From positions 1 through 41,760 of the forward strand of contig RSEH01000342.1 of the NCBI GenBank assembly GCA_006503475.1: a stretch of DNA of 41,760 nt. Direction: 5' to 3'. Positions 9,438-35,560 of this stretch are shown piece after piece (within the stretch, counting starts at the first letter, position 1; the number at the start of each line of letters is the position of its first letter). This DNA comes from Stentor roeselii (lineage: Eukaryota > Ciliophora > Heterotrichea > Heterotrichida > Stentoridae). Under the pieces are notes generated by a model. The model worked only from the letters and a program-made list of their open reading frames with translations, searched no databases and was not told where the DNA came from. The position numbers and the translations under genes are program-made.

Positions 9438-10412
9438 CTAAACTAATTTTAAATAAAATAAATTGTGATTCAAACCATTTCCTTCAGAAATCTTGAGTCT
9501 GAATCCCTCAGCTTCTATAACTCTATGAGTAGTTTTTATTCCATAAAAACATATCCCATGATAAAGAAATTCAATATTATAGTCATTCCCAGGTTTCAAT
9601 GTCACTGGATAGGATAAAATCAGTTCCTTTGTTAATCTTGAACCATCGTTTACTAGTTCAATGTTTGGATCTTCTTCGTAAATGGTTCGCTCGTTCTCAG
9701 TAATCTTGACATTATAAAAGAAAATACTTGAATTAAGACCTGGACATATTCCAACCCCAAGTGCTTTTAACTGACAAGGGGTGCCTGATAATATCTTGAA
9801 TTGACAACCACACGACCCATATTCAATCATAAAACAGCCTAAAGAGCTTCCTAGGAATACATAATTCGAGTCTATCCCTATCTTTTTTTTTTCCCTTTCT
9901 AATGCCATTCTTGAAAGTTTGGTTAGAATATCGTTCATAATCCCATTACAGAAATTTTTCAAAAAAGATTTAGGTTTCAATAAGTTTATCTTAAAAATCC
10001 TCAAATCTTTGAATACCTTAAATTTATCAGATATATAAAGAAACTTATATAATCTTAGTAATTCTTCATTATTCTTTAGAATTTTGCAGGTAAAGTTATA
10101 CATTTCAATATCTTCAAGAAAAGTTTTAAAAACTTTTCTGAAGTTTTTAAAGGTTAAATGAATTGAACTGAAATCATGGACGATTTTTTCAGTTTTTTGA
10201 GGATTTTGTAATGAAAGTGACTTGTTGATGGCTTCTTTAGAATTTTCGTAGTTTTCTCTATCAGAAATATCTGATTTGCAAAGGGGACAAATAAGTTGTT
10301 CATGCTTTGAGAGGTAATCGATGCAGTTCATACAAAGTTTGCATGTGCAAGGCCCAAGAAGTAAATTCTTTGATCTTGATAAATTTTGATAACAATAAGC
10401 ACACTGATGCAT
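9438..10412 (-). CDS. RING-finger + PHR-domain protein, probable E3 ubiquitin ligase (copy A)
   Basis: A 324-residue protein. Residues 4-45 form an all-Cys RING: C4-x2-C7-x14-C22-x-C24-x2-C27-x2-C30-x11-C42-x2-C45, with Cys in the usual His position. Residues about 60-165 are helical. Residues about 165-324 match the PHR fold found in PAM/Highwire/RPM-1 and BTBD1/2 proteins: the central LGVGICPGLNSSIFFYNV resembles the family's GVGLYGP strand, PVTLKPGNDYNIEFLYHG the 'PV-LKP---Y-I' strand, and GIKTTHRVIEAEGFRLKIS the 'G---V--EGV-F-FS' end. By family knowledge the RING would recruit an E2 and the PHR domain would bind a partner. A near-identical layout lies 220 bp away (8262-9218), so this is a tandem duplication. 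RING is clear; PHR is assigned by pattern. Confidence 0.75.
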   Translation of the reverse strand: MHQCAYCYQNLSRSKNLLLGPCTCKLCMNCIDYLSKHEQLICPLCKSDISDRENYENSKEAINKSLSLQNPQKTEKIVHDFSSIHLTFKNFRKVFKTFLEDIEMYNFTCKILKNNEELLRLYKFLYISDKFKVFKDLRIFKINLLKPKSFLKNFCNGIMNDILTKLSRMALEREKKKIGIDSNYVFLGSSLGCFMIEYGSCGCQFKILSGTPCQLKALGVGICPGLNSSIFFYNVKITENERTIYEEDPNIELVNDGSRLTKELILSYPVTLKPGNDYNIEFLYHGICFYGIKTTHRVIEAEGFRLKISEGNGLNHNLFYLKLV

Positions 10413-11453: not shown

Positions 11454-14400
11454 TTAAAAAACTTCACAGCATCCAGATTTTTTCTCACTTTTCTGACTTT
11501 TTTCCTCAGCAGCTTTCAACTTGGCTTCCAACTCTTTAATCTTCTCAGCTTCACTTTTCTCAACAACACCCTGGCCAGTCCCCGCATTTCCCAAATGGTT
11601 GCCTTGTGCAGGATTCGTTGAAGGTACAACAATTGCAGAAGCATTTTGATGTTTATTCTTTTCAATACTTCCATCAAGAATAGACTGAGAAAGGGGAGAA
11701 GGACTAGCTTTATACTCTTCTTTCGGAACTTCTATTTTTTTAACACCCTTGGATTCTTCCTTATAAGTCTTTGGTTCTTCCTTATGAGCCTTGACTTCTT
11801 CTTTCTGAGCAGAAGCTTTTATCATTACTGGAGGTGCTCCAAGAGCCTTTCTGATTTTGTTCAGTTCTTCTTGTTTAAGTTGGTCTGACTTGTTGCCGAA
11901 CAAGTTGATGCAGATCTGTCCACGTTTAATCTGATCAGAAACGTATTTAGTAACAATAAACTTATGTTGTTGACGAAAGTTAAAAACCGGGTCTCTTCCT
12001 GTTGACTTACTTGTTTTAAAGACTTCTCTTCCAAGTGCTCCAATGGTATAAGAACAGTAGACATCTTTGCACAGTTCATTAGGAAGTCCTTTAGCTTGTT
12101 TGATTTTAAAGTCGAAAATCAGTTCTTTTCCTTGAATTTCTTCCATGTTTTCATACCCGGCTTCTTCCAGGTCTTCTCCGGGCATAGAGCAGTCAACACT
12201 TGCGACGAGTTTTCCGATTTCTGATCCATTTGAGCCGTAAATAGGATTATCTGTTTCTTCAAGACCTAAAAGGTACCAAAGAGACTCGGCAATAAGGTTA
12301 ACCATTCCGAGGTACCCTCCATCGTCCATCATTTCTTCAAGTTCGTCTAAATTTATTGAAAAAGGATCATATCCGATGTTTATCTTTTCTAATGGTGTCC
12401 CGGTGAAGTACTGTTCACACATGTCAGCCATGTCAGGAATTCTTTCTTCTAACTTTTGGGTGTTCCAGTAAAGTCGACTGTCCCCGATGCTTGGGTGCTG
12501 AAGTCGCAACCTGAGCTTTACTGAGTCTTTGCTTATGGTGCCGTCTGGATTCGCTTCACGGTAAAATTCAGGTCTAAACCTCATAGGCTTTCCTAGAACC
12601 GAGGCCCGCTCATTCGCTTCATTCGTCAACTGTAAAGCAGAAGAAATCATCTGTTCAACTTTCCCTCTCTGAACTCTTTCTTTTTCCTTTTCCCTCAACT
12701 CAAGTTCTTTCTGCTGCAGTTCTTCTTCCATCTTCCTCTGCTTCTCAAGTAACTCTTTTTCTCGAGCGGCTAAGGCCTGTCGACTTGCTTCATCTTCTTT
12801 CGCTTTGCTATTCATAAGTTTTTCCAAAGTTTTCTTTTCCTCTTCCATTTTTTGATAAGCTCTTTGAATTTCTTCCTGCATTTTTTTCTGCATTTCTTCT
12901 TCTTTCCTTCTTATTTCAGCTTCTTTTTCGCCGATGAGACTTTTCATTTCAGTTTCATTTGCTTCTTTCACTGCGAACTCGAAGTTCAACTCTTCGCTTT
13001 GAGGCTGTTCCGGGTCAATAAAAGAGAAAAAGACGTGATTTCCGAAACGAATTCTGTCTTGATTGTGAATTTCAGTCGGCCCTTTGATGATCTGCCCGTT
13101 GACCATTGTTTTAACTGATAGGTCAAGTGGAGTAAGAATGAACTTTCCTCCATGAAAGACGATTTTGCAGTGTTCTTGACTGACTCCAAGTCCATTAATG
13201 ACGATGTTGCCTCCTTTGCCGATGACTTGTTCGTCATTTGTGATGAGATGTTTGATTTGGCCATTAAGTTGCGGGTCTTCATTTAAATTTGTAAGATGAG
13301 GGCCTTTTACCTCTTCTTTCACAACGACTTTAGAACGGTTTTTCTCCATGTCTTCAAGTCGCTGTTGAAAAGTCATCTCGGCTTGTTCCTTCGCGATTCT
13401 CAACATTTCAATCTGCGACTGATAATCAGCAAGTGTCTCGTCGTTCACACCTGAAGCTGCCACTGACCCTCCCCTTCCTTCCACGAGCGCCTTGAGGCGC
13501 TCGTTTTCTTCTTTTAACTCTCGGATTAACTTCTCCTGTGGAGTCTCATTCACAACTGCCTGGTTCTTAATAGACTTCACCTGGTCGGCATACCTTAAAG
13601 TACTCAATGTTTCTTCGAAGTTGAATGTTGCAGGACTTATAGCTGCTATCATTGTTGTCTTTGAATTACCTCCTAAGGCGTTTTGAAGAATCCTTGTTAA
13701 TTTGCTTTCACGATATGGAACTACTTCGGCTTTGTTACCGCCTGATTTCTTTGCAAGGGCAGTTATGACTTTGCCAAGACAGGATAAAGACTTGTTGATG
13801 TTGGAACCTTCTGCGAGACGGTCTCCTGTTGCGCCGGTTTTCCCTGCACGCTCGGAACCTGCAAGGTCGACTAAGTTGATGTCGGACTGCTTTCGGTTCA
13901 GAGGCTTTCCTGTTGAGTCGTCGTAGAAGAGCTGGGTGAAGGATATTGTTAGAACTGTGTGAGCGCGACTTGAAGTCGCGTTCATTTGAGTAGCGCCTAC
14001 TGTACGGTGCTCGTTACCTTTGTCCAGCCAGTTTGAAATGTCTTGATAGGAGTTTACGATTACTTTCTTTAGACCTTCGACATAAACCCCTGTTTTCGGG
14101 TTCTCACGTACTTTAAGTCCACCTTTTTCTCTACCTGAAGGTGGAACAAGCAGATCCTGTACCTGTTCATTATAAATCTCCAACATGCTAACCTCAACCT
14201 GAAACTCAACTTTTTTCGGTTGAGGTTGACGAATGCGTTTAAAGATCTCTTCACAAGCGATAGGAATGATTCCTTTATTCGCTCCATAGCCAACAATACT
14301 ATAACTCTTTCCAGCTCCAGTCTGTCCATAAGCAAACAAACAGACATGATAGCCGTTCCAGGCGTTGTTGAGGACTTCAATGCCTAAATCATTGAAAACT

Positions 14401-14645
14401 GTCTGTTGATCCGCGTAGTTCGAGGACAAAGAAGCTTTTTTCATGAGACCTGTCCCGGGCTCCTCAATGAACCCGTCATGAGACCAGTAACTGTAGTCGA
14501 AGTTGAACTCTTTTTCGATTCCTTGCTCCTTGCTCCAGATCTTCGTCGTTTTTCCACTCATGGCCACGCATAACTCGGCACCTTCTTGACGTTCTCGGTT
14601 GTTGTAAGGACGGACCCTCACAGCTACTTTAACTGAATCACCCAT
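11454..14645 (-). CDS. Kinesin-3 (KIF1/Unc104-like) motor with FHA domain and CaaX tail
   Basis: A 1063-residue plus-end-directed microtubule motor of the kinesin-3 family, expected to carry membrane cargo. The motor domain (1-360) shows the P-loop GQTGAGKS (107-114), switch I NATSSRAH (222-229) and switch II DLAGSE (260-265). A short neck helix follows. An FHA domain (about 450-543) has the core IGKGGNIVINGLGVSQEHCKI; residues 555-670 are a long charged coiled coil. A KIF1B/DUF3694-like region comes later, with a C2-like segment near 880-960. The tail is Lys/Glu-rich. No PH domain is visible. Instead the protein ends GCCEVF, a CaaX-type prenylation site next to a second Cys. The start MGDSVKVAVRVRP is typical of the family. 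It diverges from the isomerase gene across 253 bp holding a tandem repeat and a palindrome. Confidence 0.95.
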   Translation of the reverse strand: MGDSVKVAVRVRPYNNRERQEGAELCVAMSGKTTKIWSKEQGIEKEFNFDYSYWSHDGFIEEPGTGLMKKASLSSNYADQQTVFNDLGIEVLNNAWNGYHVCLFAYGQTGAGKSYSIVGYGANKGIIPIACEEIFKRIRQPQPKKVEFQVEVSMLEIYNEQVQDLLVPPSGREKGGLKVRENPKTGVYVEGLKKVIVNSYQDISNWLDKGNEHRTVGATQMNATSSRAHTVLTISFTQLFYDDSTGKPLNRKQSDINLVDLAGSERAGKTGATGDRLAEGSNINKSLSCLGKVITALAKKSGGNKAEVVPYRESKLTRILQNALGGNSKTTMIAAISPATFNFEETLSTLRYADQVKSIKNQAVVNETPQEKLIRELKEENERLKALVEGRGGSVAASGVNDETLADYQSQIEMLRIAKEQAEMTFQQRLEDMEKNRSKVVVKEEVKGPHLTNLNEDPQLNGQIKHLITNDEQVIGKGGNIVINGLGVSQEHCKIVFHGGKFILTPLDLSVKTMVNGQIIKGPTEIHNQDRIRFGNHVFFSFIDPEQPQSEELNFEFAVKEANETEMKSLIGEKEAEIRRKEEEMQKKMQEEIQRAYQKMEEEKKTLEKLMNSKAKEDEASRQALAAREKELLEKQRKMEEELQQKELELREKEKERVQRGKVEQMISSALQLTNEANERASVLGKPMRFRPEFYREANPDGTISKDSVKLRLRLQHPSIGDSRLYWNTQKLEERIPDMADMCEQYFTGTPLEKINIGYDPFSINLDELEEMMDDGGYLGMVNLIAESLWYLLGLEETDNPIYGSNGSEIGKLVASVDCSMPGEDLEEAGYENMEEIQGKELIFDFKIKQAKGLPNELCKDVYCSYTIGALGREVFKTSKSTGRDPVFNFRQQHKFIVTKYVSDQIKRGQICINLFGNKSDQLKQEELNKIRKALGAPPVMIKASAQKEEVKAHKEEPKTYKEESKGVKKIEVPKEEYKASPSPLSQSILDGSIEKNKHQNASAIVVPSTNPAQGNHLGNAGTGQGVVEKSEAEKIKELEAKLKAAEEKSQKSEKKSGCCEVF

Positions 14646-14898: not shown

Positions 14899-15603
14899 AT
14901 GGTAGAGCTTCAAGCATCCTCAGGAATTTTCACTATGTACATTCCCCGTACATTCACATTGAACACAGTCGCTGAAATAACTTCCTGTCTTGAAATAGTT
15001 GAGAACCATTCAGGTCCCACAGCCTTGATCATCACTTCAAAGGACCCGAAAATATTTTCAGGAGGAATGGATTTGAAGTTCATAATGAAAAACGGTGCAT
15101 CGAGTGGAGTCATGCTTTTTATCGCGTTGATGAAAGTATTCGGACGTCTGCTGAGATTAGGAGTCCCGACCATTGCAGCGATCAATGGCCATGTCGTCGC
15201 CGGAGGACTTATAATGGCTCTGGCATGTGACTACCGGATAATGAGTAAAGACGCGGGTTCTGCGAAAATGACTGAAATTAATCTGGGAATGTCTTTGCCT
15301 CGAGGCGGCAACGGCATCTTTAATGTGAAAGTCACTCCTGATGTGCATAGAGACTTTATACTTAGGGGAAAAGTTTTTACTCCTCAGGAATGCTTTGATA
15401 GAAAAGTTGTTGATTTTCTAGTTCCTGCTGATGAGGTTTATAAGAAGGCCGTTGAATTGGCTAAGGAAGTCATGCAGTTTGGAGAAAAGAAAATGGTTTA
15501 TGCGATGATTAAGACTAGTATGTACTTTGATCAAATTAAGATTTCGGAAGAAGCTGTGTATCGGCAGGGAGAGTTGGATTGCATTACCACTCCGAAGATA
15601 TAG
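14899..15603 (+). CDS. Enoyl-CoA hydratase/isomerase family protein (probable delta3,delta2-enoyl-CoA isomerase)
   Basis: A 234-residue crotonase-fold protein. The first oxyanion-hole segment is FSGGMDLKF (53-61) and the second is INGHVVAGGLIMALACDYRIM (95-115). Glu126 in MTEINLGMSLP sits where enoyl-CoA isomerases of the plant/animal ECI type place an acidic residue. The short length and the run GHVVAGG followed by DYRIM resemble peroxisomal ECI proteins, which move the double bond of unsaturated fatty acyl-CoAs so that beta-oxidation can proceed. The C-terminus, TTPKI, is not a standard peroxisomal signal and no mitochondrial leader is obvious, so location is unclear. The fold is certain; isomerase rather than hydratase is likely. 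Confidence 0.85.
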   Translation: MVELQASSGIFTMYIPRTFTLNTVAEITSCLEIVENHSGPTALIITSKDPKIFSGGMDLKFIMKNGASSGVMLFIALMKVFGRLLRLGVPTIAAINGHVVAGGLIMALACDYRIMSKDAGSAKMTEINLGMSLPRGGNGIFNVKVTPDVHRDFILRGKVFTPQECFDRKVVDFLVPADEVYKKAVELAKEVMQFGEKKMVYAMIKTSMYFDQIKISEEAVYRQGELDCITTPKI

Positions 15604-15712
15604 AAGTAGTTTTAGTAGTAGGGTTTAACAGAATGATTCTAAAAAGCATCAAATCAACTATAATTTTCCAAACCCATCCATAATCATCTCAAAAAAATTC
15701 CCATATTCATAA

Positions 15713-16306
15713 ATGATTTCCTTATTCTCAACCTTTCCAATATCTCTCCTTCTCCTCTGCACTCCTTCCTCAAGTACCTTCTCCTGGGGTCCCTGCCCAT
15801 CAATCTTTTCAACATCAGAAGAAGTGATCTCCTTAAAAGCTCAAGGTTTCTTCTACTCCTTCTCCGATCTCTCCCCATCTGACTTCCTCGGAACCTGGCT
15901 AGACGTATACCGAAGCCAAGACTTTCCATACGCGAAAGGAAACTGCACTCAAGGTTTTTACTACATCACAGAAGACGGTAAAATCGCAGCAAAGAACTCA
16001 GAAATCGTAAACGGGGTGAATTCAAGTGCAACAGCAGAAGTCTTCATAGACCCTGACACATCAGGACAGCTTTATGTGAAGTTTTCGCACTTTGGACCTG
16101 CAGGTGACTTTAAAATAATTCACACGGATTATAAAAACTCAGCTTTGGTCTTTAGTTGCACTTCAGTCCTGCTCGCGCATATGAAGTTTGCTTGGATTCT
16201 TGTTAGAAGACTTGATGTGGAACCGCCTGGGCTTTATTATCAGCTTATTGAAAGATTTGGCATCTCTTTGGATAGGATGATTAATACTAATCATGTTAAC
16301 TGCTAG
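15713..16306 (+). CDS. Secreted lipocalin
   Basis: A 197-residue protein with a hydrophobic signal peptide (about 1-22). The lipocalin first conserved region is FLGTWLDVYRS (58-68) with the invariant Gly-x-Trp (G60, W62). The second is HTDYKNSALVFSC (137-149) with the TDY motif, and the third-region Arg lies in WILVRRLD (161-168). Cys residues C78 and C149 could pair as in apolipoprotein D-like proteins. The length suits a single eight-stranded barrel that binds a small hydrophobic ligand such as a lipid or pigment; the ligand cannot be read from sequence. It ends in TAG at 16304-16306, only 4 bp from the stop of the convergent gene on minus. Confidence 0.85.
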   Translation: MISLFSTFPISLLLLCTPSSSTFSWGPCPSIFSTSEEVISLKAQGFFYSFSDLSPSDFLGTWLDVYRSQDFPYAKGNCTQGFYYITEDGKIAAKNSEIVNGVNSSATAEVFIDPDTSGQLYVKFSHFGPAGDFKIIHTDYKNSALVFSCTSVLLAHMKFAWILVRRLDVEPPGLYYQLIERFGISLDRMINTNHVNC

Positions 16307-16310
16307 TTTA

Positions 16311-16934
16311 TTAAGGAAAATTAACTGAATGGAGAAGGCTTCGAACTCCTTCTGAATATGTTAGCTTTGAAAAGAGTTGAAGTTGACTTTTGAAGATTTC
16401 TTTGTCTAGAGATGGCTCTGGGCAGAGCTTTTGGGAGTATTGGGCCGTGAAGGCTTTTCGGCTTTTTAAGGATGTGTTTATGTAGAGCTCCAGGGACTCG
16501 CTTGTTAGGGAGCCGATTGCTAGATTTGGAAGGATTTGGAAGGTGAAGGAGAAGATTAGTTTTATGAAGGCTTTTACTTGTGCAAAACTCAGCTGATTCT
16601 TCACCTGAACATCAAGCACATCAAACCAAACCTCTGCTTTTCTTTCAGGCTGTGCACAACTCAAAAAAACACAAAAACAAATCACCTTCTTCAAGTCATA
16701 CTTATCTCCATTCCTAAAGTTCATAAACAATTTCCAAACATTCTCTTCAAATCCAATGCCAATGGCATCAAGAGCCTTTTTAAACCTAACTTCATTAAGT
16801 CCATCCTCAGCAGTCCATTTCTTAAACGACCATTCAATCTTTTCAGGACTGGCAAAAATCAAAACTTTTCTTTCACAGTTCAAAACAACTCGATCCTGTT
16901 CACTAAGCAAGTGTCGACTACTGCAACATCCCAT
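16311..16934 (-). CDS. Probable N-myristoylated, EF-hand-like protein
   Basis: A 207-residue protein, starting at the ATG at 16932-16934 because it gives MGCCSSRHLL, a classic Gly2 myristoylation site with Cys3/Cys4 available for palmitoylation. The frame extends 12 codons further to another ATG, but that would bury the signal. Residues about 30-110 have helix-loop-helix spacing with phenylalanine patterns like calcineurin-B or neuronal calcium sensor proteins (FKKALDAIGIGFEENVWKLF, FDVLDVQVKNQLSFAQVKAF). The loops lack full calcium-ligand sets, so calcium binding is doubtful. It is probably a membrane-anchored signalling adaptor. Its start lies 4 bp from the start of the Sec7 gene and its stop 4 bp from the lipocalin stop, so promoter and 3'-end signals must lie inside neighbours. 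Confidence 0.65.
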   Translation of the reverse strand: MGCCSSRHLLSEQDRVVLNCERKVLIFASPEKIEWSFKKWTAEDGLNEVRFKKALDAIGIGFEENVWKLFMNFRNGDKYDLKKVICFCVFLSCAQPERKAEVWFDVLDVQVKNQLSFAQVKAFIKLIFSFTFQILPNLAIGSLTSESLELYINTSLKSRKAFTAQYSQKLCPEPSLDKEIFKSQLQLFSKLTYSEGVRSLLHSVNFP

Positions 16935-16938
16935 AATA

Positions 16939-19900
16939 ATGAACAGAAAAGGGACAATCAACAGTATCAAAGGCGAGATTCACAACTTGTTAGCAGTTCT
17001 TCGCTTTTTGCCTGCATCATGTCCAGACAGTTACACAGAAGAACTTCTTGATTTATTCCAAAAGCTTTTAGTTTGTTCTGACGTCGACGGGGTGGACTAC
17101 TGGTCCCCTTTCTTGAAGATCATTCAAAGTCCTGACTCGACAAGTGCCATAAAAGGCGTGGCTTTGTCGTCAATTCACAAGTTTCTGCTTTACGGCTTCG
17201 TCAGTCCTACTTCGGCTTACACCCTGAACAAGATTGTCAATGGAGTCGTTCAGTGCATCATTGAAAGTTACTCAAGTAGTGATGAAGTCGTGCTTATGAA
17301 ACTTTTGCATGTCTTTTTGGAATGTCTCAGAGCACCTGCTAGTGTTTTTTTAACTGATGCTAGTGTTTGGAGCATTTCGAAAAGGTGCTTTGATATCTTT
17401 GAACGTGAACGGGCAAGTGAGTTGCTGAAAAAAACTGCTCAGAATACTTTGCTTCAGATATTTTTGATTGTTTTTGGAAGAGTTGCGGAAATTTGTAATG
17501 ATCAGGAAAATTCGGCTTATGGAGTACTTTGCTTGAAGAAGGTTATTTTGCATCTGGCGCATTTGATTGGATTTTCTGATAAGAATGACTCGAATTTCAA
17601 GGAAAAAAGGTGTCTTGGGCTATTTTTGATGAATACTGCTTTGGAAACTGCTGGGGAAAATATTGGAGTGCATAAGGAATTGATTTCTGTTATTCAGGAT
17701 GAGGTTTGTAAGAGCTTGTTGATTAACTCGGCGACTGACGACCTGTACATCTTGACTCTAACCCTACGAGTAGTATTCAACCTTTTCCAATCAGTAAAGC
17801 AGCACTTAAAAGTGCAACAAGAGGTCTTCTTCAACAGCCTTCATCTAAAAATCGCAGCAGCTTTCGACGAATCAGGCGATTCAGGAGTATTCCAAAGGTC
17901 AGAACTTGCTTTAGAAAGCATAGTAGACTTTTGCCGCGAGCCTACCTTGATGTTAGAGCTTTACACAAACTACGACTGCGACTTTGAATTTGCGAACTTA
18001 TTTGAAAGACTTGCGAAATTTCTCTGCAAACACGCTTTTCCCTTGAACAACAACCTGAACCGTCTTAATGAGTTATGCATTGAAGGCCTTTTGGCAATCA
18101 TTACTTCGATTTCCATGAGATGTGACCCTAACCTCAAGCCAGGAGACTCTGGAGAAGTCGCAGATGTGAAAGACTTGAAAGAAAAAAAGACTTTAAAAGA
18201 AATTTATTTGAAATCTGCGGAAATTTTTAATAGTGACCCGAAAGAATTTATTCCGAAACTTCAGGAACTTAGATATCTTCCAGTTGAATGTGAAGCGAAG
18301 GATGTTGCTAAGTTTTTTAAAGAAAACCCGGCGATTGATCATGTTAAACTTGGAGAGTATCTTGGGACTAATAAAGAGTTTCATAAGAAAGTTATGGAGG
18401 AATTTTTAGAACTTTTTGACTATAAAAGTCTTAGTATTGACCAGGCACTTAGGACTATTTTCAAGTCTTGTAAAATACCTGGCGAGGCGCAGGTGATTGA
18501 CCGTGTAGTATCTTCATTCGCACACGCTTATTACCCATCAAGTTCCGTGATAGTAGACGAGACCTCAGCCTACGTTCTAGCCTTCAGCATAATAATGCTA
18601 AACACCGACCTGACATCCCCTTCAGTGAAAACAAAGATGCCAGTAGAAGCCTACATCCGAAACTTAACAGGAGTGAACGGAGGTAAAGACTTCCCCGAAG
18701 ACTTCCTCCGAAAAATTTACTCTTCAGTGAAAGACGACCCGATCGAGACCAAAGAAATAATCCGTTCAATCGAGCACAAAGACATTTCAGACATGAACTC
18801 AAAATGGGGAAAAATTCTTCTACGAGGCCAAAACACAGGATACTCCACTTTAAACGAACTCCTGCGACAACCTGCAGGAAACAACGAAAAACTCATGTTC
18901 GACGTGCTGTGGGAATCCGGTCTTCTCGGCACCTTGACCAGCGTGACTGAATCAGCGACTACTGCGAAGTCCTTCTCTCTTATGCGCGACTTACTTGTGG
19001 AATGTTCAAAAGTTTCCTCTTATTTCGAGATGAACGATTACATTGTGAAGATAATTCATATTCTCTGCTCGAATTTCATAAAAAACTCTGAGTCCATTGC
19101 TCAGCTTTTTTCAACTCCTCGAGCTTTTTATATTCTTGAGTCTGCTGTGGGAAGTGCTGTGGTTGCCAAAAATAACATGTTTTCAGCTTGGAATCATTTG
19201 GTTAACTGTCTGCTTAAATTGCATAAACTTAAAGTTCTGCCCAATCAACTTGTAGAACTTGATGATTTTGTTGATGAATTCGGAAATGCACTCCCCATGG
19301 CAACCAGTCATTTTGATGAGACCTTCTTTCAGTACTTTAGAAGTTCACATCATTCGAGTAGTCAGAAGAGCGATGAGGATATTGCAGAAGAAACTGCTGG
19401 AATCTGGTCAAGCTTCGTCAAGTACCTCGGAGTACCCACTGCTGGAGGAAGGAATAATGAAGAGGTTTTAATGGAAATGCAGAAGGAGGTCAAGGAAAAG
19501 GTCCAAGCAACTGGAATTCATATTTTGTTCACTTCAAGTAAAACTTTTGATAAGGAAGGACTTGAAGCCTTTCTTGGATGCTTACTTGCAAGGTGCAGGG
19601 CTGAAAGTGATGAGGTCAGCATTGTGCTTTGTATTGAAATACTCACTGGAAGTGTCTTGTCTAATGCTGCACGATTAACTGAAGAAACGTGGAAAATGGT
19701 TTTAGAGGACTTTGAAAGAATGGTTTGTAGAGATTCTTATACGTGGACTCAGGAAAGGGCTTTGGTTAATTTGATTAGAATCGCAGTTTTGCATCATGAG
19801 GACTACTCTGGAATTGCTATTTACTTGCAGAGTGTTTTGAAGTATGTTGCTTCACTTGGAATTGAATTGTTTTCTAAGTATGCTGATAGACTTGCTGCTG

Positions 19901-20748
19901 GACTTTCTATGCTTTTGTGTCAAGGCAATGCAGCGTTTTTGTGTCAGGGAGACTGCTGGACTGTGGTTTTGAAACTTCTGGAAAATTTTGCAAGTACTGA
20001 GAAGACTGCGAGGACTGGCCAGGATTTTATGTTGACCCTTCTGCATCACCTTAACAAAGACCCTAATAGTGCAGTCGAGATGTACGAGAACTTATTCGAA
20101 GTTCTAAAGCAAACCTTAAAAACCTGTTATTCCGACAGTTCAATTCTCAAAACCGCAGTGGAAGCCTTAATAAAAATCTTCAAAAACGTTCAAAAGCGAG
20201 GTTCAACCGAGTTCATTTCAATCTTCTGGAAGAAAATCGTATGCGAACTGGGTAAACTCTGCCAGTCACGACTTCATTCAGTTCGTCTAGTAAGTTACCC
20301 GGCTCTTCAAGAGGTGATTTTAAACTCAACCAAGCAAGACTCATGGCCTTTCTGGAAAGAATGTTTCGAAAAGATCCTATTTCCTTTAGTAGTCGAGCCA
20401 TTCGTGATAACCAAAGAAATGTTAAAAGGTCTGAGCGATGAAAAGACTTTGTCCATCAGACAAGAGTTCGAAGCAAGCAGAGAAAAAGCGACAGCTCTTG
20501 TTTGCCAGACCACATTGAACCTAATTCCCGTAATGGGCAAAGCCAGCGACTTCCAATCATTTTGGCTGCGACTTGTCAAGCTTCTATCACAGACCTTAAA
20601 AGCAAAAGACGAGGTAAATGAGAAAAACTACGAAATCATCAAGAACTTGTTCATCATCGTCAAGTCAGAAGACATCGTCACTCAAGACTCTTGGAATGAA
20701 ACCTGGAACCTGGTGAATCTTGACTGTATGAAAGATGAGATTAGCTAA
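16939..20748 (+). CDS. Sec7-domain ARF guanine-nucleotide exchange factor, GBF1/Gea type
   Basis: A 1269-residue protein. I start it at the ATG at 16939 because INSIKGEIHNLLAVLR then falls at the N-terminus, as in GBF1; the open frame extends 61 codons upstream through the divergent gene. Order: DCB domain (about 1-200), HUS box with YTNYDCD (near residue 345), Sec7 domain (about 415-603), then helical HDS regions. The glutamic finger is in CKIPGEAQ (Glu516), the residue that displaces nucleotide and magnesium from ARF. The motif MLNTDL is also present. By family it acts at cis-Golgi/ER-Golgi membranes to start COPI coats. Brefeldin-sensitivity positions read Phe, Ser, Asp, Met. Stop TAA lies 14 bp before the next gene. 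Confidence 0.93.
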   Translation: MNRKGTINSIKGEIHNLLAVLRFLPASCPDSYTEELLDLFQKLLVCSDVDGVDYWSPFLKIIQSPDSTSAIKGVALSSIHKFLLYGFVSPTSAYTLNKIVNGVVQCIIESYSSSDEVVLMKLLHVFLECLRAPASVFLTDASVWSISKRCFDIFERERASELLKKTAQNTLLQIFLIVFGRVAEICNDQENSAYGVLCLKKVILHLAHLIGFSDKNDSNFKEKRCLGLFLMNTALETAGENIGVHKELISVIQDEVCKSLLINSATDDLYILTLTLRVVFNLFQSVKQHLKVQQEVFFNSLHLKIAAAFDESGDSGVFQRSELALESIVDFCREPTLMLELYTNYDCDFEFANLFERLAKFLCKHAFPLNNNLNRLNELCIEGLLAIITSISMRCDPNLKPGDSGEVADVKDLKEKKTLKEIYLKSAEIFNSDPKEFIPKLQELRYLPVECEAKDVAKFFKENPAIDHVKLGEYLGTNKEFHKKVMEEFLELFDYKSLSIDQALRTIFKSCKIPGEAQVIDRVVSSFAHAYYPSSSVIVDETSAYVLAFSIIMLNTDLTSPSVKTKMPVEAYIRNLTGVNGGKDFPEDFLRKIYSSVKDDPIETKEIIRSIEHKDISDMNSKWGKILLRGQNTGYSTLNELLRQPAGNNEKLMFDVLWESGLLGTLTSVTESATTAKSFSLMRDLLVECSKVSSYFEMNDYIVKIIHILCSNFIKNSESIAQLFSTPRAFYILESAVGSAVVAKNNMFSAWNHLVNCLLKLHKLKVLPNQLVELDDFVDEFGNALPMATSHFDETFFQYFRSSHHSSSQKSDEDIAEETAGIWSSFVKYLGVPTAGGRNNEEVLMEMQKEVKEKVQATGIHILFTSSKTFDKEGLEAFLGCLLARCRAESDEVSIVLCIEILTGSVLSNAARLTEETWKMVLEDFERMVCRDSYTWTQERALVNLIRIAVLHHEDYSGIAIYLQSVLKYVASLGIELFSKYADRLAAGLSMLLCQGNAAFLCQGDCWTVVLKLLENFASTEKTARTGQDFMLTLLHHLNKDPNSAVEMYENLFEVLKQTLKTCYSDSSILKTAVEALIKIFKNVQKRGSTEFISIFWKKIVCELGKLCQSRLHSVRLVSYPALQEVILNSTKQDSWPFWKECFEKILFPLVVEPFVITKEMLKGLSDEKTLSIRQEFEASREKATALVCQTTLNLIPVMGKASDFQSFWLRLVKLLSQTLKAKDEVNEKNYEIIKNLFIIVKSEDIVTQDSWNETWNLVNLDCMKDEIS

Positions 20749-20762
20749 TTTAAGGACTATAA

Positions 20763-22037
20763 ATGAAAAATTCCAAGTCCGCACGTAACTCGGCACCTCA
20801 GGGAAACGTAATCGCGAAGTCCAAAAAGCTCACAATTGACGTTCCACCTGACGACGACGTCGACATTCCTGTTGAGAAGTTCAGTAAAAACTCTCCTGTA
20901 GCAAGCAAAGTAGCGAACGAAATTCAAAAAGTCTCAGGTTCGATTTTTGCTCCAAAGCACAAAAGCCCGTCGTCATCACAGTCGACGAAACGTTGTTATA
21001 CAGGAACTGGAGCTGGTTCTTCATCGAAAGTAAGTCAAAAAGTGTTTAAATTCCCAGCATCTCCGAAACCAATAAAAAAAATCCTTGCCAAGCCCCCCAG
21101 TCAGTTGCGGAACTCGACGAAGCCGCGGCAGTCTTCTACGAAATATTCGCAAACGCCTACAAATCGAAATACTTTAAATGATGGTAAAAAGAGACCGAAA
21201 ACAGCGACAGTCGAGAAAAAGTCTGACACTGGATCGACTTTGAATCACTTGGTCACTTCGATTAAGAAACTTCAGCCTTCCACGGACTCGAATAAAAGTG
21301 ACACGCTTTATAAAGAACATCTTTTTCAGACGTTTCAAGCTATGAAGTTCGTTAGAAGTTTACAGCCTGTCAACTTGGAACATCTGAAGGAAAAACGGTT
21401 GAATGTACCTGTAAAAAAAGGATTTGAGGGAAAAAAAACTATTATTTTTGACCTTGATGAAACTTTAGTTCATTGTTGTGAAGATTTGGCAACTGCTAGG
21501 CCTGATGTTATACTACCTGTCACATTTCCTACGGGAGAAATTGTTCAGGCTGGGATTAATATACGCCCGTTCGCGTTAGAGTGTTTGCGAGAGGTTAACA
21601 AGGACTTCGAAGTCTTCGTCTTCACAGCCTCTCACCCTTGTTACGCGAATGTCGTTCTAGACTACCTCGACCCATGCAAAGAGCTGATTCAACAGAGGTT
21701 CTTTCGTGACTCATGCATTAATGTCAACGGTGTTTACATAAAGGACCTAAGAATATTCGCGAATCGCAATTTGAAAGACATGGTCATTGTAGACAATGCT
21801 GCCTATTCATTCGCTTATCAACTTGACAATGGAGTCCCTATTGTTTCTTGGCATGACGACCCGAATGACAAGGAACTGTTCAATTTAATGGACTATGTCA
21901 AGGCTTTGGCCGCTGTTGATGATGTCAGAGATGTTAATGACCAGACCTTTCATTTGAGAAGTTTTTATGAGGATTATATTAATGAATTCCTTGCTAATGA
22001 CACTGCACCTACGCCGAGACAAATTAAGAATAAGTAA
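20763..22037 (+). CDS. FCP1/SCP-family HAD phosphatase, CTDSPL2-like
   Basis: A 424-residue protein. Residues 1-220 are a basic, Ser/Pro/Lys-rich, probably disordered extension. The catalytic domain (about 222-410) opens with KKTIIFDLDETLVH, placing the DxDxT nucleophile and acid at Asp230 and Asp232. It continues through VFVFTASHPCYANVVLDYLD and closes with the acidic VIVDNAAYSFAYQLDNGVPI. These features match small CTD phosphatases and CTDSPL2/HSPC129 proteins, which remove phosphate from Ser of the RNA polymerase II tail or of other regulators. The substrate here is unknown. The start codon lies 14 bp after the Sec7 stop on the same strand. Confidence 0.92.
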   Translation: MKNSKSARNSAPQGNVIAKSKKLTIDVPPDDDVDIPVEKFSKNSPVASKVANEIQKVSGSIFAPKHKSPSSSQSTKRCYTGTGAGSSSKVSQKVFKFPASPKPIKKILAKPPSQLRNSTKPRQSSTKYSQTPTNRNTLNDGKKRPKTATVEKKSDTGSTLNHLVTSIKKLQPSTDSNKSDTLYKEHLFQTFQAMKFVRSLQPVNLEHLKEKRLNVPVKKGFEGKKTIIFDLDETLVHCCEDLATARPDVILPVTFPTGEIVQAGINIRPFALECLREVNKDFEVFVFTASHPCYANVVLDYLDPCKELIQQRFFRDSCINVNGVYIKDLRIFANRNLKDMVIVDNAAYSFAYQLDNGVPIVSWHDDPNDKELFNLMDYVKALAAVDDVRDVNDQTFHLRSFYEDYINEFLANDTAPTPRQIKNK

Positions 22038-22326: not shown

Positions 22327-23100
22327 TCACTTCTTCGCCGAACATTGAATTTTTTCGATTTTTTCTTGAGCCTTGAGGAGTTTTTCTTTAATAATCCTCA
22401 TTTTGCCATACAACTTAGAAATTTCTTCTCTTTTCTGCTCAGCAGTCAAGTTATCCTTATAAACATTCAAAGAAACTTCAGGCGTAGGACATCTGACATT
22501 TTTCCTGGCCTCATCAGGCAAAGTATCAGCGGTTTTCACAGTTTCAAGAGGATCCATTGAGTTGCGACAGTCTCTTGCACTAGAGTTTCCGTTTTCTTTC
22601 TTTTTAAGAACTCCATAGTACCGGTTCTTCAAAGCCGCCTTGGTCCTTCCAGGGAATAACTCGCATATTTTTTTCCAGCATCCATTGTAAGTCGAGTAAA
22701 GTTTCAGGATTTTTTCATCGTCTTCTTTTTTCCAGATCAAACTTTTTAGGTTCTTCTTGGTTAGAAATTCCCATCTTTTCTTTATACCGCCAAGTGAATG
22801 ATTGTTAAAGCTCTTTGAGATTAGACCCCAGTCATAGTTGTGTTTTTTAAGCAATTCTATTAATTTCGTGTCGTCAGATGCTGACCATTTAGTGGAATCT
22901 GATACGTTTAGAGAGCTCTGCTCGGTAAATTCAGAACTGGCTAATGAGCGAGGCTCTTGCGAAAGTAAAGACTCATCCAGTTGAGGTTCTGGTTTTTCGG
23001 GATCTATGGGTTTACGCTCACCCGTGCAGAGGATTGATGAAGATGGCAGGACATCCGCCCAGAAAGTTGAAGCCGATTCAAATGCTGTGTTCCACTCCAT
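22327..23100 (-). CDS. Two-repeat Myb/SANT DNA-binding protein
   Basis: A 257-residue protein. An acidic Ser/Glu-rich N-terminus (1-70) may be an activation region. Myb repeat 1 spans about 71-113 (KWSASDDTKLIELLKKHNYDWGLI, ending in KKRWEFL) and repeat 2 about 122-166 (LIWKKEDDEKILKLY, then ELFPGRTKAALKNRYYGVL). The spaced tryptophans and the GRT--AL-NRYY recognition helix are typical of R2R3-like Myb factors. A short charged coiled coil (about 225-255, Glu/Lys-rich) could dimerise. It is convergent with the phosphatase gene (289 bp between stops) and divergent from the large solenoid gene. It ends in TGA, one of the genes showing that TGA is a stop here. Confidence 0.88.
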   Translation of the reverse strand: MEWNTAFESASTFWADVLPSSSILCTGERKPIDPEKPEPQLDESLLSQEPRSLASSEFTEQSSLNVSDSTKWSASDDTKLIELLKKHNYDWGLISKSFNNHSLGGIKKRWEFLTKKNLKSLIWKKEDDEKILKLYSTYNGCWKKICELFPGRTKAALKNRYYGVLKKKENGNSSARDCRNSMDPLETVKTADTLPDEARKNVRCPTPEVSLNVYKDNLTAEQKREEISKLYGKMRIIKEKLLKAQEKIEKIQCSAKK

Positions 23101-23631: not shown

Positions 23632-26600
23632 ATGAATGCTCAAGGAAGGAATCAGATCTGCCAGACAAGCTCAACACATGAACTAAAAGAAATTTTTAAA
23701 ATAGACTTAGGATGGAAAGTCATAGTTCATAACGAATTAATTTACCAATACAACAAAACTCATGTAAATGAATTCAGTCTTCAAGGCAAGTTACTTCGGC
23801 CGATCCAAGTGTTTCAAGCCTCGCCAATATTGTCTCTTCACTTCACAGACCAGCTGTTGATCATAAGCCCTGAAAAATTAACAACATCAGAAGGTAACTC
23901 AATCCCGCTTCCAATCCGCCTTCCCCTGAAAAATTTATCCAGTCTTGACAACAGTCTTCTTCTGGACTTCGAGTCATCACAGCACCTCCTAATCGACTTT
24001 TGCCTTTCAAAGTCCTTCGAAATTCCATCCAAGTTAATCTGTTCAATAAAATCCTTAAAAGTCTTTATTTGTTTATCATCCAGCGAGATCCACCTAATAA
24101 GCAAGTCAGGGAAACTGGAATCTTACGACCAGCCACACGCGAACATTGATCACTTCGCATTAAAAAACACTTTTCTTCTCTCTGCAAGTGACCATTTCCT
24201 TTACATCGACAGTCTTCCTTCAATGATTCCTCTTCAGACTATAACCTTGACAGTGCCACTTCGAGCAATTCACTGCTTTTCAAGTAAACTTTTTGGGGGA
24301 AATTTTTTAATTCGCTGTGAAAAAAGACTCATTCTTCGAGATTTTTCTGATTTTTCAATAAAATTCCAAGCAGAGGTCTCAAATTGCAAAGTTTTATCTC
24401 TAGGCCTGTTTAAAATCAACGGCTCTGTCTTCAAGTTGCAGCTCAAAGACACTGTAAGTAAAGTGAAAGACCTTATTTTAAATGGAAACTTCAAAGCCGC
24501 AACTGAAGGCTGTTTGAAAATAATTCGAAAAAACCTAAAATTCACTTCTGAAGTGATTGAATCCCTTTGTACAGATGAAGACCTCAAAAATAGGTACCTT
24601 TTATGCTGTGATTTTTTAGCTTCTTTTAAAAAGGTTCAGATGGAAGACATTGCGAGGCTTGTTGAGTTCTTTTTGAAAGAAGACAGGCTGGACTTCGAGA
24701 TGTTTTCAGCCTCAATCAAAAAATTTTCCTTGTTTTTATTTGAAAAAAGACTGGATGATGAATTTTTTCAGGTTATTCGAATGTGGAGCAAGTTTGAATT
24801 GTTCACTGAAGTGTTTCAAGGGAGAAACTGGCAGGATTTCAAAAAAAGTCCAGGAAATGAAGAAATCGCGTGGCTGTTGAAGGAAGGCAGGATTGACAAG
24901 GCAATTGTTCTCTTTGATACTTGTAAAGAACAGCTGAGTTTAGATCAAATTTATGGCATTATTAATCAAATCGACTTTAAACTTGAGTTTCACTTTACTG
25001 AAAGCTGGCTCCGCGGAGAGGTCTTTCCTCATCTTTTATCTGCTGATTTGAGTCGTTTTCTCACCTGGTTACTGCGAAAAGTGAAGAAAATGATGAAAAT
25101 AAACATTGACTTGAAAAACATTCTGAAGTTGCTGGACTTTCCCTTGAAATTCCCAGCTTTGGGTAAAGATCACATTGAAAATGTTTTGAATTTCCCGAAT
25201 TTTCAGTCGATTCGAGAAGACCTGTGCACTTTGATCACATTAAAAAGCGATTATTCAATAGTTATAAATTTTTCTAGTCTTTCTCAAGAAAATGACTTGA
25301 CAATCGGACTTAAAATCCTTTCAGGTCTTTGCCTGGCTTCTTTAGACTCAAAAATCCAGCTTCTTGAAAAGTACTGCAAAGAGAAAAAGGTTGATATGGA
25401 CATGGTTATCTCAAAGTTTATTCAACAGATGTTGGAAGAGAAGCTAAATGACCCGAACTGGATGCAGATGGTCTCCATTTTAGTGCGTTCAATAAAAAAC
25501 ACTGAAACAAGGAGCAGAAGTATTCTCAATGTACTCGGAGTAGCGCAGTCATCATCGAAAACATATGAAGAACTCTTAAAATATGCCTTTTCTTATGAAA
25601 ATTCTTCTTTTAAAGTCAACTTTTTGAAGATTAAACAAGCTGAAAGCTTCAAAAAAATCAAAGAAAAATACACTGCTGAAGATGTCAAAGTGACTCAGAC
25701 TAATATGGTCAAGTTCGTTAGTTTCATGCTCAACTCACAGATTCACACTTGTTTAGAAGACTCACTTGAAGTCGCAGAGATGATTCATGGCTTCTCTTGT
25801 GTTGAAGTTGTTCTCATGTTCTTGGAAAGCGTTTTGCAGGACTTGCAACGACTTGAATGGCTTGAAAGAATCAGAAGTCTTGTTGAAAAAGAAGAGCTTT
25901 TTCAGTTGATTGTGTTTTATTTCATCACTTTTCTTGAAGAAAACTCGATTCAAGAGATTTCCTGGATTCAGCAAAGGTACAAAGCAGCTTGTTCTGCCCT
26001 TTTAAAGCTTTTTGAAATCTTCGGCTGTGAGGACTTGGAACTTGTGAATATTATACAAAATCTGTTGAACCTTTCAACAAATTACAACATTTATCTGAAG
26101 TACTCTGAATACTCATGCAGGAAAACAAGGAAAAAGACAGTGAAAAGCTGCATTTTTAACTATGTTGAACACTTTTTAACACAGCCCCAGTCACCTTCCA
26201 GCGATTTGACTTCGAAGCCTTCCAAGCCAATTGTTTCCTTTGAATCTTTATTCAAAATCTCTTCTCTTCTGCACTTCAACCACGTGAAACTTCTTCTAAA
26301 CCTTGCAAAAGCTTCATCAAAAAATCGTCTAACATCTAAAACCTTATTTTTTCTAGATGAACTTTCAAGTCACAAGCTGAACTTTTCACAACTTTCTGAA
26401 ATTATCGTCATTACCGAGTTCGTTCTGCGCACTTTGCAAGACTCAGAGACAGTGACAAGATTGAGACATTCATTTGAAAGGATTTTAGATAACAACTTGA
26501 AAAATAATAAAAAATTCTTAAGAGAAGTATTGAAAGTCATTCAAAATTTACTTAATGTTGAAAGTTTTCTCAGTCCTTGTAAAGGTTTGAGAGATGAAAA

Positions 26601-29151: not shown

Positions 29152-30028
29152 ATTTAGAATAGATAGATAAATGATTATGAAAATCAAGTTCATTTCTCAT
29201 GCATCTTATGAGGTACGTGTTTAGTTTCCATATTACTTAAAATGGTCGAAATTTGAGTATTATAAAAATATTTTTCTGCTTAAGGGAATCAAAGAGGAAA
29301 ATATGATGAATTCTGAACTAATTTATTGACCTTTATAGCATCACGAGAAGTTAAATTTATGTGGAGGTGAAGTTTGTATTGATATGAGAAGTAATGAATA
29401 CATATAAGTGTTATATATCTTTTGTAAAAACATAAAATTTATATCCTGTATAAACATATATAAAAAATTAATATGAAAGTTAGAAGAATCACCCTATTTC
29501 GTGGCTTTTCTTAAAAGGGTTTGCTAGATTATGATATTTAAACATCAAAGAAAAAATCTGAGAGTGAAATCGGGATAAAATCTTGAAAAAGTCACAGAAT
29601 TTTCCATCGGTCTTATAATCCGGATCATTTTGCATCTTGATTTGGTAGGTAAGCAATTTCTCTGAGTTTCTACCAAACCACGGTCAATCTAAGCTTGTAC
29701 AAGAATGATAGTATAAGATTACCGTACCTCTGTCTTGATTACATTATAGACAACATTTCATAAGAGAAAATGAACTTGTAATATTTTTTAGATATAGTAA
29801 TTATCTCATCAATTTATGGGAAAAACTAAACAAGTCAGCTTATAAGTAAATCTGAGAATTATTTACAATGGTCGAAAACTTCAAGCAGAGTGGCTGGGCT
29901 ATAATTGTTCTTTATAAAGTAATGAATAAAGTAAAAACTTCCTAATGATGAGCTAGTACTCATCGGAAATATTCGAATTCATTATATATTTCATTTCAAA
30001 TATTCATCATTTTTTTGCAGTAATATAA
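29152..30028. other. AT-rich intergenic region with one orphan open stretch
   Basis: 877 bp. A minus-strand frame is open for 64 codons (29489-29683), includes MQNDPDYKTDGKFCDFFK and has less AT-biased wording than its surroundings, but I recognise no domain and it has no good start. It could be a gene remnant. Close to the next gene, TTTTTTTGCAG ends 8 bp before the ATG at 30029, resembling a splice acceptor, and an imperfect hairpin (GATGAG-CTAGTA-CTCATC) lies near 29949. Neither has supporting evidence. Confidence 0.45.

Positions 30029-34214: not shown

Positions 34215-35560
<1,346 letters not shown>

Follow-up and report, generated by a model that had tools for sequence, protein, structure and literature searches.

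Alternating keto- and amino-rich blocks of about half a kilobase in the Stentor roeselii genome and their possible origin at recurrent double-strand breaks

The strand skews left by replication or transcription enrich one strand in G and T and follow replicons or gene strands over kilobases. In the ciliate Stentor roeselii, G and T are likewise in excess on one strand, but the sign of this excess flips every 450-560 bp inside genes, which raises the question of what kind of process could act at such a scale. We addressed this question at a stretch of 41,760 nucleotides of contig RSEH01000342.1 (hereafter the window) that encodes a GBF1/GEA-type Sec7 ARF exchange factor on the forward strand (positions 16756-20748). 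The frame of this gene is open throughout, with Pfam matches to Sec7 (4.8e-59) and HUS (1.4e-25) and with GEA2 as top PDB match. In the following, K (keto) denotes sequence that is GT-rich on the top strand, M (amino) denotes AC-rich sequence, and a K-to-M step leads from GT-rich to AC-rich sequence.

Third-position blocks in the window

Of the 18 ORFs of the window, 17 entered a test that compares the variance of third-position keto content in 40-codon windows with 300 synonymous-codon shuffles per ORF, and 12 were tested after five ORFs below 200 codons had been left out. The variance in the Sec7 gene is 5 times that of the shuffles, none of which reaches it (0/300), and five further ORFs lie beyond all 300 shuffles as well (5897-7987, 11454-14645, 14899-15603, 16311-16970, which shares 215 bp with the Sec7 ORF, and 23632-29151). 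Two ORFs are weaker (22327-23100, reached by 3/300 shuffles, and 20763-22037, reached by 14/300), and the remaining four show no excess over shuffles (3446-4342, 9438-10412, 30029-30976, and 36830-38272). The last two delimit a stretch (30029-38272) whose tested ORFs show no detectable blocks, and the keto variance ratio of the region 30000-41760 is ca. 1.4 at the 200-400 bp scale. Synonymous shuffles, a comparison already proposed by the sequence-only reading that first described the blocks, thereby rule out chance and amino-acid composition as their cause, and we regard the observation as confirmed.

Along the top strand, an M block at 16600-16990 (third-position keto content 0.27) is followed in the Sec7 gene by a K block at 17358-17735 (0.77), an M block at 17735-18190 (0.35) that begins with a sharp K-to-M step at 17736 (score 6.55), and a K block at 18190-18510 (0.67; M-to-K step at 18186, score 4.05). 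The next M block at 18510-18970 (0.26) again starts with a sharp K-to-M step (18506, score 6.61). Rows at 18918-19097 are intermediate (0.50-0.55), with an M-to-K step near 18944 (score 4.58), before a K block at 19098-20040 (0.64) and a final M block at 20050-20715 (0.34; K-to-M step at 20048, score 5.22). The computed steps at 17736, 18186, 18506, and 20048 all fall within 8 bases of the borders that had been drawn by eye. Elsewhere, the WD40 gene alternates between M at 5921-6420 (0.33), K at 6420-6890 (0.71), weak M at 7120-7460 (0.43), and K at 7460-7980 (0.67), and a large ORF without Pfam match at E 0.001 changes from M at 27130-27620 (0.34) to K at 27700-28200 (0.66). The blocks reported for these three genes thus all have the expected sign. 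However, the initial description of third positions as nearly all T/G was too strong: the T/G excess is there, but whole K blocks reach only 64-77%, with a peak of 0.90 in single 20-codon rows.

A further K block at 16130-16580 (all-base keto content 0.61) covers the end of the forward-strand frame 15713-16306 and part of the reverse-strand frame 16311-16970, and it ends at a sharp K-to-M step (16581-16582; score 6.88, all-base matched filter). Third positions in this block have a keto content of 0.69, though all 55 of these sites come from the forward-strand frame. The block spans both frames as proposed, but the claim that these are two opposite-strand genes stands less firmly, since the TTG start of the reverse-strand frame and its overlap with the Sec7 ORF make its status as a gene uncertain.

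Extent in the genome and relation to genes

The blocks are widespread in the genome. We sampled 20 scattered 10-kb stretches for ORFs of at least 300 codons, with at most four per locus (one locus yielded no such ORF), and tested 47 ORFs with 100 shuffles each. The later genome-wide statistics leave out a copy of part of the window (L001) and four tubulin loci (L030-L033), and an E. coli control was treated separately. On the keto axis, z is at least 3 in 37/47 ORFs, compared to 16/47 on the GC axis and 0/47 on the purine axis, and a two-state hidden Markov model of 240 kb converges to keto even if purine content is its starting point. The signal is thus strand-symmetric and keto-specific, and both results rule out purine or GC content as its primary axis. 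No such pattern is seen in E. coli K-12, in which the autocovariance of a 50-kb stretch, computed in the same way, stays at 0.000 to 0.007 whatever the lag. Signal amplitude correlates with GC3 (Spearman 0.20, p 0.035, 107 genes), a trend that we considered as a sign of a link between recombination and GC but do not rely on, and it is near zero in genes with GC3 below 0.25 (n = 9). Our search of open-licence PMC articles for keto/amino blocks and ciliate strand skew found no description of such blocks, and the two passages found in PMC5182062 contain nothing on them. There was no clear excess of heterotrich-type introns of 15-16 bp, and PDB matches for two very long ORFs were uninformative.

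The sign of the blocks does not follow gene strand, with a mean third-position keto content of 0.49 over 71 ORFs and 0.504 across all codons of the ORF set, and it flips several times within a single gene. At distances of 30-199 bp, keto covariance is positive for genes on opposite strands (0.029, bootstrap sd 0.010; 11/32 blocks contain such pairs) and for coding sites paired with non-coding ones (0.039, sd 0.005). Together, the mean near 0.5, the alternation within ORFs, and the covariance across genes rule out gene-level codon bias or gene strand as explanations. Amino-acid usage also shifts in the predicted direction in 9/11 codon or amino-acid contrasts, by only 0.2 for Ile/Thr and Val/Ala, while Ser/Asn shows no shift and Ser/Pro a slight one the wrong way; one of five control contrasts, Arg AGR/CGR, shifts by 1.26 and is not clean as a control. 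The suggestion of a strand-asymmetric process at the DNA level rather than a codon bias has thus passed the shuffle test and agrees with the opposite-strand and non-coding covariance and the amino-acid shifts.

The idea that the blocks ignore genes altogether was right with respect to the alternation, which continues deep inside long ORFs, but not with respect to placement. On average, intergenic gaps contain a K-to-M step, which is 0.207 ± 0.039 in gaps of at least 100 bp (positive in 47/65) and 0.058 ± 0.037 in gaps below 100 bp (positive in 31/60), with a step of opposite sign in 47/125 gaps. This step is present in divergent (0.127 ± 0.050, n = 24), tandem, and convergent gene pairs, and gene ends are K-rich (+0.14 to +0.19 over the last 150 bp), while many other K-to-M centres are intragenic. 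With a K-to-M step in the average gap, genes on average start AC-rich and finish GT-rich. Taken alone, such a run along genes could pass for a gradient internal to genes, as might arise if selection acted on codons, on mRNA structure, or on the positioning of nucleosomes. We nevertheless consider selection highly unlikely, given that the signal crosses opposite-strand genes, enters non-coding DNA, is stronger at wide gaps, and reverses several times within one gene, and that amino acids shift in the mutational direction. The autocovariance also has no feature at 150-200 bp and thus gives no hint of nucleosomes, whose maps had been suggested for comparison with the block borders.

Block length and step polarity

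Blocks are roughly 450-560 bp long, in line with the flips every few hundred base pairs noticed by eye. The third-position autocovariance declines smoothly, reaches zero near 300 bp, and is negative near 500 bp. It is fitted by a box dipole with arms of 443 ± 88 bp and equally well by an alternation with a mean block of 560 bp, and alone it cannot separate dipole from alternation models. Memoryless switching with its exponential autocovariance is rejected (chi2 227.7 compared to 14.9 for the box dipole, 26 bins treated as independent).

The two kinds of steps differ: K-to-M steps are sharp and M-to-K steps are gradual. At third positions, steps with a score of at least 4 comprise 62 K-to-M and 31 M-to-K cases (binomial p 0.0017), and those of at least 5 comprise 36 and 7 (binomial p 9e-6), while 20 synonymous shuffles yielded on average 0.5 and 0.95 steps of at least 4, respectively. 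The excess has the same direction in the window, in another contig (C4), and in the 20 scattered loci, and an all-base filter gives 42 K-to-M vs. 19 M-to-K steps at scores of at least 5 and 17 vs. 4 at scores of at least 6. Lowering the threshold to 2.8 reverses the counts (147 M-to-K vs. 121 K-to-M), i.e., M-to-K steps are the commoner ones below a score of 4. At 100-200 bp, the skewness of +0.23 to +0.32 (bootstrap sd 0.06-0.07) comes near that of a simulated alternation in which K-to-M steps are sharp and M-to-K steps blurred. At 400-500 bp, it is -0.02 and -0.11, whereas simulations of isolated K-to-M dipoles predict +0.4 to +0.5 (+0.35 to +0.38 for a clipped regular variant). This overprediction rules out isolated K-to-M dipoles on their own, and only contiguous alternation comes close, though none of the models tried matches the negative skewness at 500-600 bp. 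The polarity of the steps is a new point that the sequence-only reading had missed, and it is the most informative feature of the blocks.

This polarity bears on two processes known to leave skews. In mammals, transcription enriches the coding strand in G and T at the expense of A and C, and ciliate meiosis features bidirectional micronuclear transcription. Short germline transcripts with K on the non-template strand could thus be envisaged, and K-rich gene ends would fit. However, genes begin AC-rich, divergent gaps show K-to-M where divergent starts should give M-to-K, and the alternation persists inside long ORFs. Furthermore, transcription starts are expected to be sharper than ends, yet the sharp step is the convergent one, and we consider this origin unlikely. 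An asymmetry of replication, with each step as an origin or terminus, appears extremely unlikely to us: leading strands are indeed often rich in G and T, but origins should show sharp M-to-K steps while the sharp step here is K-to-M, and forks that travel far could hardly reverse their asymmetry fully every 0.5 kb.

A k-mer search revealed no convincing sequence motif at the steps. The top 6-mer is present at 14/94 steps compared to 3.75 expected from flanks (uncorrected for the number of words tried), and k-mer asymmetry is mostly explained by base composition. The steps also lack a GC3 peak of the kind that biased conversion might leave.

Spectrum of change and recurrent breaks as a candidate cause

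Fourfold sites in strong M sequence contain A, C, G, and T at.43,.26,.06, and.25, compared to.19,.07,.20, and.53 in strong K sequence, from which it follows that the change from M to K consists mainly of transitions. The shift in T/C from K to M, which is based on composition and not on observed mutations, peaks at 2.87 log units where G follows (CpG) and drops to a minimum of 0.57 where G precedes, i.e., GpC is largely exempt. As to paralogues or alleles that might reveal mutation direction, a self-comparison of the window and loci L002-L029 (matches of at least 150 bp) gave tandem repeats or copies of 65-73% identity, several of the latter in signal-poor loci. The WD40 gene has short matches only in the genome (65% and 79%), and the four tubulins, at 30-62% identity, have diverged too far for a paralogue test.

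The explanation that we tentatively favour is that the blocks are the accumulated mutational imprint of recurrent double-strand breaks at fixed germline sites. Breaks would recur about every 1.1 kb, and resection of 5' ends would leave single strands with 3' ends, each about half a kilobase long, with the top strand exposed on the left of the break and the bottom strand on its right. These arms may gain C-to-T changes (most in CpG) and A-to-G changes through deamination and through gap filling that is prone to errors. With many repetitions in the course of evolution, the top strand would become GT-rich to the left and AC-rich to the right, which would yield a sharp K-to-M step at the break and a blurred M-to-K zone between the arms of neighbouring breaks. 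The polarity expected of resected breaks (K left, M right, sharp centre) is the one seen among the strong steps, and the expected CpG-elevated C-to-T change is seen in composition. The model would further predict arms of a finite length set by resection, for which the autocovariance fits dipole arms and alternation equally, and centres in accessible DNA such as intergenic gaps, whereas K-to-M centres are seen both in gaps and inside genes. That breaks lie at the steps, that they occur in meiosis, and that the changes were fixed by mutation and not by a bias of conversion is our inference.

The break model also expects meiotic recombination genes, and Spo11-, Dmc1-, and Hop2-type genes are present. 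The genome encodes a match to the Top6A/Spo11 family (3.9e-18), a DMC1 match of 509 bits (cut-off 447.7), a second RecA-family match just below this cut-off (446 bits), and a match to the Hop2 family (2.2e-19). For AID/APOBEC, no PF08210 match was found in the genome, and control genomes likewise gave none. In total, the break model needs ca. 40,000 fixed sites (44.4 Mb at 1.1 kb), which is a high density. The absence of a convincing motif or GC3 peak at the steps counts against it, and plain hydrolytic deamination does not predict the GpC exemption. Further points against it are the unmatched skewness at 500-600 bp, the surplus of M-to-K steps at low scores, the contrasts that failed to shift as predicted, the gaps with a reverse step, and the missing signal in genes with GC3 below 0.25.

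If the same breaks instead led to strand-polar biased gene conversion, this would rely on the same recombination genes. In this scenario, an invading 3' strand with G or T forms a G.T mismatch and one with A or C forms an A.C mismatch; if G.T were less often rejected, or more frequently resolved in favour of the invader, G and T would spread on 3' tails without mutagenesis, giving the same K-to-M polarity, mainly transitions, and amino-acid effects. However, a dependence on CpG and GpC context does not follow readily from it. We know of no reported mismatch bias that favours G.T over A.C, and we doubt this explanation. Programmed DNA elimination is another candidate in a ciliate, a placement with which the tubulins agree. 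K-to-M steps would then be junctions of excised sequences, with flanks shaped by the excision of these sequences or by their targeting through small RNAs. Excision junctions can be about as dense, as they are in Blepharisma, but no convincing k-mer marks the steps, and mutations linked to excision should not be inherited because programmed excision takes place in the somatic nucleus. This origin is very unlikely in our view.

Several features of the break model are familiar from other organisms. Rad51 prefers GT-rich single strands. The same in vitro binding preference is described for RecA (PMC3763553). Under the break model, the 3'-ended strand next to the break would be the GT-rich one. To our knowledge, no tract composition is known to go with the RecA/Rad51 preference. 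At human meiotic hotspots, the forward strand is single-stranded to the left of the break and C>T is high in CpG, a polarity and spectrum as in the S. roeselii blocks, though the human data (PMC7615360) concern new or very rare mutations within ca. 2 kb of PRDM9 sites. S. roeselii instead shows a fixed composition with arms of about half a kilobase, ca. every 1.1 kb and in most sampled ORFs. Similarly, yeast clusters from bidirectional resection with a single switch are mutated on the top strand at C to the left and at G to the right, with the reverse absent or very rare (PMC6786661), which resembles the left/right polarity seen here. These clusters arise from an APOBEC enzyme after bursts of breaks, while S. 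roeselii displays inherited composition and A-to-G besides C-to-T changes.

It is possible that recurrent breaks at fixed sites spaced at ca. 1 kb made the sawtooth in synonymous positions, non-coding sequence, and even amino acids, and that each sharp K-to-M step is a break site, such that bare sequence maps the sites of recombination initiation. If so, break mutagenesis would be strong and its sites stable enough to remodel most genes, including protein sequences, and a single assembly would suffice to map where recombination starts. One could then test directly how stable hotspots are and what recombination costs in mutations over the long term. Irrespective of the mechanism, a skew sawtooth at sub-kilobase scale biases analyses of codon usage, selection, and phylogeny that assume uniform mutation per gene.

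Keto/amino blocks along the DNA

The assembly spans 44.4 Mb in 522 contigs, of which the window is one entire contig. We sampled this 41.8-kb window, 20 scattered 10-kb stretches, and 80 kb of another contig (C4), i.e., 321,760 bases or 0.7% of the genome. Genes are compact and for the most part uninterrupted when read with the standard code, in which all three stops are used.

In the Sec7 ORF (16756-20748, plus strand), the variance of third-position keto sums over 40 codons was 4.89 versus 0.93 after synonymous shuffling, and 0 of 300 shuffles reached the observed value. The same measure gave 5.12 versus 0.91 for the WD40 ORF (5897-7987) and 8.79 versus 0.85 for the minus-strand frame at 16311-16970. 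Among 12 window ORFs tested, six were never matched by any shuffle, two were weaker, and four had no signal, so that the alternating blocks described in the sequence-only reading hold up against synonymous-codon shuffles. Outside the window, 37 of 47 ORFs had keto-axis z scores of 3 or more, versus 0 on the purine axis and 16 on the GC axis, and a two-state HMM ended at the same keto solution (mean dwell ca. 320 bp) even when initialised on the purine axis. The signal is absent from the nine most AT-rich genes, those with GC3 below 0.25.

The keto/amino signal acts on DNA and not on codons. Using third-position residuals with the amino acid's mean subtracted and pairs 30-199 bp apart (bootstrap sd in brackets), covariance was 0.046 (0.003) between same-strand third sites, 0.029 (0.010) between genes on opposite strands (a mere 27,168 pairs, confined to 11 of the 32 blocks), 0.039 (0.005) between coding residuals and non-coding bases, and 0.015 (0.004) within non-coding DNA alone. 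This positive covariance across opposite-strand genes and into non-coding DNA bears out the earlier claim that the blocks are not a codon bias. Non-coding strands with G and T in excess (K; the AC-rich state is M) are composed of A.306, C.086, G.197, and T.411.

The proteins are affected as well, with codon or amino-acid ratios linked by keto transitions moving in the predicted direction between K and M windows in 9 of 11 cases: Leu TTR/CTR (1.54 log units), Cys/Arg (1.40), Leu/Ser (1.16), Arg/Lys (0.99), Val/Ile (0.60), Ala/Thr (0.57), Phe/Ser (0.51), Val/Ala (0.21), and Ile/Thr (0.19). The exceptions were Ser/Asn, which did not move (0.09 ± 0.08) where a shift had been predicted, and Ser/Pro, which moved the opposite way (-0.19 ± 0.08). 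Four controls (Asp/Glu, Asn/Lys, Gln/Lys, and Val/Leu) were flat (-0.06 to 0.08), and the fifth, Arg AGR/CGR, shifted by 1.26; the likely cause is that A-to-G change of Lys AAR feeds AGR while CGR loses C in CpG.

At fourfold sites, T/C and G/A both shift, which under strand symmetry is not independent evidence. The keto share rises from 0.31 to 0.74 while the purine share changes merely from 0.49 to 0.39, and transitions therefore dominate. How strongly T/C differs between K and M depends on the 3' base (G 2.87, A 1.9, C 1.5, T 1.2) and the 5' base (C 2.3, A 2.1, T 1.8, G 0.6), and G/A before C is unresponsive or slightly wrong in direction (-0.29). Over third positions in the 322 kb sampled, the keto shift is strongest in CpG and largely spares GpC.

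Genomic surroundings of the blocks

The window has AT-rich flanks (3446-4940 and 36234-38272) with GC3 of ca. 0.21-0.28 versus ca. 0.4 mid-contig, and keto blocks were absent from both flank ORFs tested (3446-4342 and 36830-38272). They are present in the WD40 gene at 5897-7987 despite its GC3 of 0.26. From 2895 to 4940, WD40-type coding sequence (a label read from the translation, with no family search behind it) crosses successive overlapping frames (2895-3389, 3323-4339, and 4320-4937) in the AT-rich flank, which suggests a gene that is broken or split by introns. A tandem gene pair in scattered stretch L014 (1886-3668 and 5249-7031; 73% identity over 1.8 kb) lies in a GC-poor stretch, and both ORFs tested there lack keto blocks. 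Three other scattered stretches hold tandem repeats of 73-88% identity across the three loci, with smallest offsets of ca. 144 bp (L002:702-1710 and L023:4306-5033) or 72 bp (L011:5337-6000).

The genome gave 23 tubulin-family matches (contigs C152, C201, C305, C350, C364, and others). Some lie at contig ends and two are fragments that contain stops; unmerged haplotypes or broken copies may be the source. The best PDB match of alpha- and beta-tubulin is 6u0h (chains A and B), a Tetrahymena structure, and the tubulin sequences themselves appear to be of ciliate type.

Steps relative to genes and block length

Genes start in the M state (first 150 bp, -0.04 to -0.21 depending on length class) and end in K (last 150 bp, +0.14 to +0.19). 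Across the gaps, the top strand read from left to right steps from K to M in divergent (0.127 ± 0.050, n = 24), tandem (0.121 ± 0.039, n = 78), and convergent pairs (0.195 ± 0.048, n = 23) alike. Pooled gaps of 100-1500 bp gave a step of 0.207 ± 0.039 (positive in 47 of 65) versus 0.058 ± 0.037 (31 of 60) for narrower ones, some of which may reflect split genes. Such a pattern would suit step centres lying in open intergenic DNA better than a gradient of codon use within genes. Under an all-base filter, ORFs contained 0.55 of 42 strong K-to-M steps and 0.95 of 19 M-to-K steps, with a baseline of 0.71 for 1608 random positions. Third-position filtering, possible only where coding sites flank a step on either side, placed 98 of 121 K-to-M steps more than 150 bp inside ORFs. 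Intergenic DNA is therefore preferred but not required. No convincing sequence motif was found at the steps.

The residual autocovariance falls from +0.065 at short lag through zero near 300 bp to -0.024 near 510 bp and is back at zero by ca. 900 bp (mean at 380-700 bp, -0.0198; bootstrap sd 0.0034). Taking its 26 bins as independent, memoryless switching fitted poorly (chi2 228) and an antisymmetric unit with arms of 443 ± 88 bp fitted well (14.9); alternating blocks averaging 560 bp (gamma shape 4) did equally well (12.2) when a second analysis treated the errors as correlated. The negative lobe kept ca. 60% of its depth inside 31 ORFs of at least 2 kb, more than 500 bp from ORF ends, so gene length is not simply its cause. 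No similar pattern was found in 50 kb of E. coli K-12.

Polarity of the steps and its possible origin

Each kind of step is its own reverse complement, and the two may therefore differ without violating strand symmetry. They do differ. With third-position residuals, 220-bp arms, and coding sites required on both sides, K-to-M steps outnumbered M-to-K steps by 62 to 31 at scores of at least 4 and by 36 to 7 at scores of at least 5 (window, 7/4 and 4/1; C4, 23/11 and 16/0; scattered loci, 32/16 and 16/6), while 20 synonymous shuffles averaged 0.5 and 0.95 steps, respectively, at the lower score. The all-base filter gave 97/86, 42/19, and 17/4 at thresholds 4, 5, and 6. At a low threshold of 2.8, the third-position filter found more M-to-K steps (147 versus 121), as expected if these are shallower.

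Left-minus-right skewness was +0.23, +0.32, and +0.26 at 100, 150, and 200 bp and -0.02, -0.11, and -0.17 at 400, 500, and 600 bp (sd 0.06-0.10). Simulated symmetric alternation gave zero, whereas blurring M-to-K steps by 150 bp either side gave +0.30, +0.37, and +0.31, dropping to ca. +0.1. Isolated K-to-M dipoles were rejected, as their simulated skewness of +0.3 to +0.5 from 150 bp upward is unlike that observed. At 500-600 bp, where the observed skewness is slightly negative, none of the simulated models matched it.

This polarity calls for a process that marks, from both sides, the strand with its 3' end toward the sharp centre. It is this very strand that resection of a double-strand break exposes, and C-to-T and A-to-G changes on the left top strand would make K left and M right. 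In yeast resection clusters, mutated C precedes mutated G, whereas clusters in the reverse order are very rare or absent (PMC6786661). Matches to recombination families in this genome comprise one to Spo11/Top6A, one to DMC1 that passes the curated cut-off, another of the RecA family that falls just short of it, and one to the Hop2 family. The high density of putative break centres is a point against break repair. Replication or transcription asymmetry as the source of the blocks is disfavoured, since either the opposite polarity or a dependence on gene strand would then be expected. Searches of open-licence papers listed no report of such blocks, although this says little about novelty. Our preferred explanation of polarity and blocks is repeated break repair at stable sites, at a little under an even chance, and strand-polar conversion bias is kept as a close rival because it would share the same geometry.
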